NCBI RefSeq assembly: GCF_025698545.1
Contig: NC_068575.1
Coordinates: 62,443,980 to 62,507,979 of the forward strand
Source of the DNA: Gossypium raimondii
Taxonomy: Eukaryota; Streptophyta; Magnoliopsida; Malvales; Malvaceae
Length of the DNA: 64,000 nucleotides
Reading direction: 5' to 3'
Shown here: positions 15,050-21,526 of the stretch, one piece after another
Position numbering within the stretch: the first letter of the stretch is position 1
Layout: each line of letters opens with the position of its first letter
Made by a program: the position numbers and the translations under genes
Notes under the pieces: generated by a model
The model's database searches: none
What the model saw: only the letters and a program-made list of their open reading frames with translations
Told to the model about the DNA's origin: nothing

Positions 15050-16319
15050 TTACAGCATGTTTGGTTGGCTGTAATGGAATAGATGCGTAATGGAATAGAG
15101 GCGTAATAGGTAATCTTTTATTTGGTTGAATGTAATGGAATAGAGGCGTAATGGTATTCTTGTGTTTGGTTGAATGGAATAGAGGTGTAATAGCATAAGG
15201 AAAAAAACTAAAATGACTAGAATACCCTTAGCAGAATTGTTTTTAAGTAGATGATTATTGTTATTGTTATTAAATTTTAATAAGCTTATTAATATAAATA
15301 ATATATAATTTAATAAAATATATGAATTTACTAAAATCATAATATATAATACTATAAAATATAATTTAAAATAATTATTATTAAATATAATTTAATATAA
15401 ATATATAATTCCCCACGTTATTTGGAGATACAAAATACGAAGCAATTAATTGTTTCACTAATCAAGGGACTGATTTTGTTTAGCCATAAAATACATCAAT
15501 ATATATTTATGTAATGAGAGTTTTCATTTACATCCGAGTAAAGTTATTTTAATTTTATATTTCAACTAACTTAACATTTTATCTCCTATATTCTTTTGGA
15601 ATATTAATTTTTATCAACCTTATACCATTCTTCTATATCATTTTGATTAAATTTAAGCTTAAATCTTATAAAAATAACATGTTTTAATAATAAAATGAAA
15701 CAAACTTATTTTATTAAATTCCATAAGTTCAACTTAATAAACTGTGCTTCTTTTAAAACGAAAAAGGAAAGCAGGTTATGATATAATTTGATTTAATAAA
15801 ATTAGTCAATATCCAAACTTTACAATTTAATCATTTGTGTCCTATACTTTAAGCAAATATTCTCTCCATTGAAGGTGTAGTAGATCACTTCATGCAAGAC
15901 AACAAATCAAAAAGCAATTATATAAAGTACAAGTTTATCAGTATAAGGCCAAGACAAGGAGCCAATTTCTATTTTTCCTTCATTAAGCTTATCAGTATAT
16001 GGATCCATCAATCCACAAACACTTGTACAACCAAAAGTCCCATATAGAAATGGTACATTTTTCCCTTGAACTAAAAGTAGCTGCTAATGCTCAAGCACAC
16101 AAGAATACACAAGCTATTACTTTAGTGCATGCGCACAGTCACACCCCCTTAGGTACATCCACATTTAAGAGGATAATATATACTAATAAACCAATACCAA
16201 ATAAAATTTTACAATAAATTCATGCCAATTTCCCCTTCAAGAACTTAACAACAGCAAAACACAATAGCTCTAACAAACAAGTTCCAAGCAGAACACAATA
16301 ATTATCTCATCAAATATAC

Positions 16320-16935
16320 CTCTGAATTGGAGATATACTCTCTGATAATATACCAAAGCTGAGCATTTGTATCCATCAACTGTAAATTACACAGAAAAGA
16401 GGCAAAAGGGCCATGAGTTTCATGATGCACACCAAGAATTGGAAACCACTCTCAGTTAATCTTGGAGCTTCTTTATCTCTGTAAAAACAAACATAAATAC
16501 ATCATGACACCAATCGTGAGATATAGAACCCTCAATATCTATTGCATAAAAGAAATGAAGCTAAAGTTCATGGCAGGATATAGCACCTCTGACGCAAAAG
16601 ACCACGCTGAAAAATTCTCATCATGGAAGAGCTGAAGCTCGTTGATTTTTCAGCTTGTCCCGAACTTATAAGTTGCAGCAAGAAACACCGCTAACAAAGT
16701 GAAGTAAGCACTCAAACATTAAAACTAAAAAGTTGAGCAAATTCAAAACTAATTGCATAATTCCGCATCACATACACTACCATTAAGAACATAAATTATG
16801 CCAATGAATCAATGAAAAAAATAGGTGAAAGTCACACCTCCCATTGCTCATGTGCATAGGCATCGAGCTCCTCTGAGGTTGGAAGCCTTGCAGTAACACT
16901 TTGAGGCATCAGTTCTCTTGGCAAAATCCCACTGC
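16320..16935 (-). pseudogene. TFB2: Captured fragment of TFIIH subunit TFB2 (p52)
   Basis: Three exon pieces with intron sequence kept. 16838-16935 encodes GILPRELMPQSVTARLP then EELDAYAHEQWE. 16587-16687 encodes CFLLQLISSGQAEK and SSMMRIFQRGLL. 16320-16379 encodes LMDTNAQLWYIIREYISNSE. These match, in order, a central stretch of plant TFB2, the TFIIH subunit that anchors XPB in transcription and repair. The segment between FQRGLL and LMDTNA is missing. The exon at 16687 lost a normal acceptor (cgg where cag is expected). It is fused at about 16935 to an NDUFV2 exon in another reading frame, so a continuous protein is unlikely. Introns show capture at DNA level, not through mRNA. Confidence 0.8.
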
Positions 16936-17507
16936 AACTATCTCAACAACTCGTTGAGTAGTAACATCTTCCTGCATTGTTTAAATATGGCAATGCACAT
17001 ATTAAAATTCCAGTAGGTTATCAATTGAGCACACTGCCTAGTTATGGTTAATCGGGCAAGTCGAAAAGAACTCTCTGAAACCCACATAGTAATTATCGTA
17101 TATCCTTCAGATCCATTGGTGTAATCAAGAATCGCAATCATAGGAGCATTTACACAACATCCTACTGAAAACATTTACAAAGTCATTAAATTTGTGAGAG
17201 TGATTAAGGAAAAAAAGGTTAGCATAAATAGATTTTCTAATAAAATTTGGCATTATGGAGAAAAAAAAGAAGTAAACATGTAAAGGGAAAGACTTACCAT
17301 ACATTCCATTTCTCCAACAGAGAATAAACCGTCCTTTGTTACCTCTGAATGATAAAAACAATAGATACTTCATATTCAATACAATCTAAAACTTCAAACT
17401 CTGACATGAGTTTTACATGATATGTGTATAACTGCAAGCAATATGTTTACAACACTTACCATTGCGCTCAACCCCCAAGTATTTCAATAAGGCTCTTTCA
17501 ATTTCTC
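16936..17507 (-). pseudogene. NDUFV2: Captured fragment of complex I 24 kDa subunit (NDUFV2)
   Basis: Four exons of the mitochondrial NADH dehydrogenase flavoprotein 2 gene. 17460-17507 encodes [15 protein letters not shown]. 17298-17344 encodes EVTKDGLFSVGEMECM. 17086-17162 encodes [20 protein letters not shown]. The end of 16971 encodes [12 protein letters not shown]. The parent protein carries a 2Fe-2S cluster, and the CVNAP segment holds one of its ligand cysteines. Damage: the acceptor before the GCCVN exon is displaced (cagta before GGA), and one base is lost after GYT. Introns are retained. The N-terminal import part and the C-terminal end are absent. It lies between the small exon at 17651-17687 and the TFB2 piece, in one orientation. 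Confidence 0.85.
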
Positions 17508-20800: not shown

Positions 20801-21132
20801 ATTGCCTATTTGGTCCTTTTAACTTTTCTTTAATCTATAATTAAACTTTTATCCCTATTGCAATTTAATCCTTTTCATAATTAACTATCGAAACATTAAA
20901 ATTTCTTAACGAAACTTTAATATTATCCTATTGACACTCCGTAAATATTTATAAAAATATTTACGGCTCAGTTTATAATATCGAGGTCTCGATACCTCGT
21001 TTTCGACCCAATTTACCTAATAATTTCTTTTAAATCACAAAATTCACTAATTCAAAAATATTTCTAACTTTTTCATCGAATTTAGTGATCTCAAATCACT
21101 GTTCTGACACTACTGAAAATTGGGCTGTTACA
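17807..21132 (+). mobile_element. LTR-like TG...CA element E3 (probable solo LTR)
   Basis: Starts TGTAACACCCCTTACCCGAG and ends TTGGGCTGTTACA. Flanked by a perfect 5-bp duplication GAGAA (17802-17806 and 21133-21137). About 3.3 kb, with no coding region. Shares its first 650 bp or so with E2 and its last part with E1 (reversed). It includes a hairpin array at 19304-19451 and (TA)n tracts near 19905-19930 and 20705-20740. It inserted into the gene-carrying transposon 15053-21523, so it is younger than that element. Ty3/gypsy (Del/Tekay-like) affinity is inference from LTR length and ends. Confidence 0.7.
19304..19451 (+). repeat. Covarying hairpin minisatellite in E3
   Basis: Four units spaced 37-41 bp, each with a 5-bp stem and a 3-nt cca loop: GGCACccaGTGCC (19304-19316), GACACccaGTGTC (19343-19355), GGTACccaGTACC (19380-19392) and GACACccaGTATC (19421-19433, one mismatch). 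A second, weaker palindrome follows in the same units, for example TCGGccaagCCGA (19359-19371) and TCGACtcaagGTCGA (19437-19451). Stem bases change in complementary pairs between the first three units. Confidence 0.8.
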
Positions 21133-21526
21133 GAGAAGGTTGGAAGGAAATGGGAAGAAGAATGAAAAAAAGAAGAAGATGCTTCAGACGTATTACACCC
21201 TCATCTAAACCAACTCCATAAAACGAGAAGAAGAAGCAGAAATCAATGGAAGGGAAAGGGAAATTACCTAATCAGCATTTGAGGCAAAAATTGATGGAAG
21301 AAGCAGAAATTGACGAGGGCAGAGAATGGAATAGAAAAAAAAATAGGGAAGGAATCCCTAATCAGCGTTTGAGGCAGGGAATGGCTATTACAGCCAAGTG
21401 AGGTAATAGATCCGTAACCAAATATAGCCGTAATAGCATTACGGGCAACCAAACATATGAATAGGTAGGGCCCACGTAATAGGGGTGTAATGGCTATGCC
21501 ATTACACCCAACCAAACATGCTCTTA

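Follow-up and report, generated by a model that had tools for sequence, protein, structure and literature searches.

Organization of the locus

The locus is occupied by a TIR transposon at positions 15053-21523 of the window, the window being the whole 64-kb stretch of DNA that was analysed. On its minus strand the transposon carries a small ATG exon followed by fragments of two host genes, NDUFV2 in four pieces (17547 to ~16936) and TFB2 in four (~16931 to 16320), a single exon holding both the last piece of NDUFV2 and the first of TFB2 (Table 1). GT-AG introns separate the cargo exons. More than half of the span consists of a nested LTR that is separate from the transposon proper; the ends given in the initial annotation hold, and the insertion at 17807-21132 was not noted there. 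The element proper comes to 3,140 bp once the LTR and one copy of the duplication made by the LTR are left out.

The remainder of the window holds further mobile DNA and several coding-like stretches. A LINE-like retrotransposon lies on the minus strand at 43859-46882, with RVT_1 (3.4e-24) and Exo_endo_phos (4.4e-8) in separate ORFs and two ORFs between them that gave no Pfam match, and MITE-like stretches at 49568-50091 and 51851-52051 show 52-bp inverted arms with 81% complementarity. Long minus-strand ORFs at 29260-30759 and 39521-41095 are of the 3-ketoacyl-CoA synthase type (FAE1_CUT1_RppA, 5.5e-110) and the exostosin-type GT47 glycosyltransferase type (4e-74), respectively, and a plus-strand ORF at 26941-27489 is sulfotransferase-like, at a value under the Pfam cut-off (0.0068). 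A tRNA scan of the 64 kb returned none. Gene content suggests that the host is a plant, and the LTR sequence may point to cotton or another member of the Malvaceae.

Table 1. Features of the transposon, its cargo and the nested LTR, in window coordinates.
Feature	Position	Strand	Basis and remarks
Left target-site duplication, TTA	15050..15052	.	Identical TTA at both ends
Left TIR	15053..15082	+	Listed inverted repeat I2, end alignment, shuffles, motif count; subterminal GTAATRG copies up to ~15190
TFB2 exon LMDTNAQLWYIIREYISNSE	16320..16379	-	Homology; GT donor next
TFB2 exon DKEAPRLTESGFQFL	16433..16478	-	Homology
TFB2 exon RCFLLQLISSGQAEKSTSFSSSMMRIFQRGLLRQ	16587..16690	-	Homology; acceptor AG ends at 16691
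Fusion exon	16838..16971	-	NDUFV2 16971 to ~16936, TFB2 (GILPREL...EQWE) ~16931 to 16838, differing frames
NDUFV2 exon	17086..17164	-	Homology in native frame stops before the exon's 3' end
NDUFV2 exon VTKDGLFSVGEMECM	17298..17344	-	Homology
Truncated NDUFV2 exon	17460..17547	-	PDB/Pfam homology; internal AG 17509-17508, possible cryptic acceptor
Small ATG exon MLKIFKKKTSPK	17651..17687	-	37 nt, phase-1 GT donor; probable VPS2/CHMP2 exon 1
GAGAA target-site duplication of nested LTR, left copy	17802..17806	.	
Nested solo LTR	17807..21132	.	3,326 bp, TGTAACACC...GGGCTGTTACA, TG...CA ends, GAGAA duplication
GAGAA target-site duplication of nested LTR, right copy	21133..21137	.	
Right TIR	21494..21523	-	Inverted repeat, end alignment, motif count; subterminal GTAATRG from ~21385
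Right target-site duplication, TTA	21524..21526	.	Identical TTA at both ends

Ends of the transposon

The span starts with CAGCATGTTTGGTTGGCTGTAATGGAATAG and ends in the reverse complement of GAGCATGTTTGGTTGGGTGTAATGGCATAG, and the end alignment places TTA directly outside both ends. Between the two TIR arms, 27 of 30 bases agree, and the outermost is among the mismatches, a point that is counted against the explanation favoured below. A TIR search of the region 14500-22100, set to an arm length of 29, a GC content of 38% or more and a seed of 11 bases, gave a score of 27 for the real sequence, and none of 100 dinucleotide shuffles exceeded 21; the TTA-flanked inverted ends described initially are thereby confirmed. 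The motif GTAATRG, counted on either strand, has six copies in each of the two terminal 200-bp stretches of the element and two in the remainder of the span (one of them inside the nested LTR); any other 200-bp window tested across the 64 kb at a step of 50 has at most one. Perfect matches of the TIR core, GCATGTTTGGTTGG, are limited within the 64 kb to the two element ends, and two more matches carry two mismatches. The window yielded no further copy of the element, which is also counted against the favoured explanation. The TIR pattern had no exact match in collections of prokaryote and virus contigs, and a literature text search found no mention of the TIR core or of a candidate PIF target consensus.

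The stretch at 17807-21132 is most simply explained as a solo LTR inserted into the transposon, judging from its ends and the duplication flanking it. Neither end is repeated within 17807-21132 (BLAST at 1e-10), and the one ORF of at least 105 aa (19377-19811) gave no Pfam match above the cut-off. Diverged, partial relatives occur at 8700-9509 (74.8%) and 7872-8112 (78.4%) and correspond to parts near the two ends of the LTR; they stand in opposite orientations, about 590 bp apart.

Captured gene fragments

The identity of the NDUFV2 part is established by searches with its pieces joined in their native frames, which matched 46 distinct PDB sequences at E<=0.001, those listed all being complex I 24-kDa/NuoE-type or related hydrogenase/dehydrogenase subunits. 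The best match was 6x89_V2 (1.7e-36) and the next 7ar7_E (2.6e-36), both of which we take to be plant structures, and Pfam returned PF01257 at 5.7e-19. With the GT-AG introns, these matches bear out the initial claim of four intron-bearing NDUFV2 exons. Homology begins inside the first of them, at 17547, which means that this exon has lost its true acceptor; in the exon at 17086..17164, neither nearby AG (17164, 17161) preserves the frame of the preceding exon.

The TFB2 pieces matched four distinct PDB sequences, each of them a TFIIH subunit 4 or a TFB2 (best 8ebt_D at 1.6e-10; 5sva_a at 8.3e-4), and PF03849 in Pfam at 4.2e-21, a second Pfam match, MetRS-N, staying below its cut-off. The protein matches to both genes, whose failure would have overturned the initial annotation, were thus obtained in PDB and Pfam alike. 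There are four TFB2 exons, not the three counted initially, the last of those being split by a 53-bp GT-AG intron (16432-16380). No TFB2 exon was recognized beyond 16320..16379, and four ORFs scanned toward the left end had no Pfam match. At the TFB2 acceptor in 16697-16682, the minus strand reads TTAGCGG then TGTTTC, and an altered former CAG there could explain one extra in-frame residue.

The two genes meet at ~16936-16931, within one exon and close to the 16935 proposed initially, but they are fused out of frame. Read from 16944 down, the minus strand runs GAGATAGTTG followed by CAGTGGGATTTTGCC. The GCAG at 16935-16932 could mark the 3' end of a TFB2 intron, the T at 16931 being the first base of the TFB2 exon; an NDUFV2 exon would then have been joined to the terminal bases of a TFB2 intron.

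The small ATG exon encodes a peptide that we take to resemble the start of plant VPS2.2/VPS2.3 and of human CHMP2B (ESCRT-III), and it is probably exon 1 of a VPS2/CHMP2 gene. A query of 22 residues, 12 of them exonic, had no PDB match at E up to 10; in Pfam it gave a single sub-cut-off match, which covers residues placed before the exon, and a literature text search found no mention of the peptide. An exon of twelve residues is too short for searches of this type, which speak neither for nor against the family. The proposal that the exon came from a third source stands as probable. Splicing to the AG at 17509-17508 would join the ATG exon in phase to NDUFV2, as had been suggested, although this AG is internal to the truncated NDUFV2 exon and such agreement has a chance of 1/3.

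Relation to known plant transposons

The TTA on both sides and the short TIRs, the two features on which the assignment is based, suggest that the element is probably of the PIF/Harbinger type, and the NDUFV2 and TFB2 fragments between the TIRs are the host coding DNA that characterizes Pack-TYPE elements. No match to a transposase was obtained among the ORFs scanned, which were the cargo pieces, six further ORFs of the element and one ORF of the LTR. Helitrons, which have neither TIRs nor a target-site duplication, are ruled out by the presence of both, and CACTA elements are rejected on duplication length and end sequence. The hAT superfamily, with its 8-bp duplication (PMC8903248), is ruled out on the same two features. 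A Pack-MULE is likewise rejected: the 9 bp outside the two ends, ATAGCCTTA and TTAGTAAAA, differ and have TTA alone in common, whereas MULEs duplicate 9 nt (PMC2528002). Pack-MULEs nevertheless resemble the present element in holding gene fragments between inverted ends, as described for rice (PMC8903248, PMC2528002).

Elements of this kind are already known in plants. Pack-PIF elements have been reported in a survey of rice and maize, with examples from maize, and most PIF elements have a TTA or TAA duplication (52.4% in rice, 81.2% in maize; PMC8903248). The present element shares with Pack-PIFs the TIRs, the TTA/TAA duplication of the majority, the captured coding DNA and the lack of a transposase, and it differs in its host, probably in its TIR sequence and in the solo LTR nested within it. 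Its cargo is drawn from more than one locus, and no such case for Pack-PIFs in particular was met in the accessible text of PMC8903248. In grapevine, PIF transduplications contain sequence identical to genomic exons and introns, with duplications that are mostly TAA or TTA (PMC2528002). Pifvine-3 of grapevine is similar in belonging to the PIF superfamily, in its eudicot host, in having captured exons and introns as DNA and in the mostly TAA/TTA duplications; in contrast, the grapevine PIF families kept their transposase and ORF1 (PMC2528002), and the present element has no recognized transposase. The initial remark that gene capture is less well known for TTA elements is corrected by the maize Pack-PIFs (PMC8903248) and grapevine PIFs (PMC2528002). 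No description of this particular instance was met in a literature search that was mostly open-access and partial in coverage.

Alternative explanations and the coding state of the cargo

Three other accounts of the locus were weighed. According to the first, the cargo acts in trans, its transcripts or small RNAs silencing the parent NDUFV2 or TFB2 gene. By analogy, transduplicates that lack coding capacity may be transcribed and regulatory (PMC2528002), but no inverted duplicate of the cargo occurs in the window, where 16320-17687 gave only one weak 47-nt BLAST match, and such an action appears unlikely.

The second account sees the exons as leftovers of genes in their original position and assigns the inverted repeats to a pair of independent MITEs lying next to each other. 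Subterminal repeats at both ends are what a short element would be expected to show, and mobilization of DNA lying between neighbouring elements is a published capture route (PMC8903248, PMC13317346). Inverted arms that each have TTA directly outside fit one element, however, and in-place genes would not be expected to include two unrelated ones joined within a few bases; this account is quite improbable.

The third account proposes an expressed young chimeric gene, in which a VPS2-derived promoter and the ATG exon drive a spliced, mixed NDUFV2/TFB2 protein. Use of the cryptic acceptor keeps the ATG exon and NDUFV2 in phase, and permissive splicing, which allowed any AG up to 40 nt from each homology-placed acceptor and the skipping of any exon, yielded a longest ORF of 173 aa; 15,921 of the 151,199 isoforms contain at least one NDUFV2 and at least one TFB2 exon in native frame. 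When the exon bodies were shuffled, 173 aa was reached in only 1 of 1,000 sets (median 41). Shuffling, however, destroys open frames inherited from coding genes, and a frame-randomised control, made of 1,000 versions with 1-2 nt deletions in the NDUFV2 pieces, was therefore preferred. In this control, 173 aa was reached in 156 versions and 165 aa in 288 (median 69), so that the long ORF mostly reflects the origin of the exons in coding DNA. With homology-placed acceptors, the ORF from the ATG stops at 44 aa, or at 47 aa when the exon at 17164 takes the next AG, three bases further along, and in the fusion exon NDUFV2 and TFB2 occupy separate frames, with a stop 8 codons past the last homologous NDUFV2 codon. 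With these acceptors, one intact coding chimera is thus rejected on frame. The 3.3-kb LTR, moreover, lies 119 bp upstream of the ATG, and expression of such a gene seems very unlikely. A fuller version, in which a three-gene PIF/Harbinger chimera with a VPS2-derived promoter and start used cryptic acceptors at or near the two joints to express an ORF of up to ~170 codons before the LTR disrupted it, is just as hard to credit.

The cargo is better read as captured DNA that has decayed and is mostly non-coding, its TFB2 part being either younger or more fortunate. The TFB2 part on its own is open across its four exons from an internal ATG, which is unexpected under uniform decay and is counted against the favoured explanation; TFB2 may be the later capture.

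Proposed origin and significance

Taken together, the locus is very probably a non-autonomous Pack-PIF that carries NDUFV2, TFB2 and probably VPS2/CHMP2-like 5' DNA, and that later underwent decay of its NDUFV2 part and insertion of an LTR element. Such a Pack-PIF would have taken up genomic DNA of NDUFV2, of TFB2 and probably of the 5' end of a VPS2/CHMP2-like gene. Retention of the introns indicates that DNA, not RNA, was captured, in agreement with the initial claim of DNA-level capture of two unrelated genes in the same orientation, which the matches to NDUFV2 and TFB2 also uphold. The fragments may have been brought together when neighbouring elements fused or through template switching. 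The former is described as a capture route for Pack-CACTA elements (PMC13317346), and gap filling plus template switching with microhomology has been proposed in animals (PMC8277862); a 2026 review allows that unlinked genes may be taken up by a mechanism yet to be discovered (PMC13317346). A transposase supplied from elsewhere would then have acted on the TIRs, leading to insertion at the present site and duplication of TTA. After insertion, the NDUFV2 part would have decayed, and an LTR retrotransposon would have landed ~120 bp upstream of the ATG exon and then been reduced by recombination to a solo LTR.

The element clearly illustrates how a TTA-type plant transposon can shuffle genes, and the joint between the two unrelated genes can be located to within a few bases. 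If the parent genes are found, comparison with the NDUFV2 part, whose frame is broken, and the TFB2 part, whose frame is open, would reveal whether the capture was stepwise, and the order of captures bears on how such elements acquire unlinked genes.
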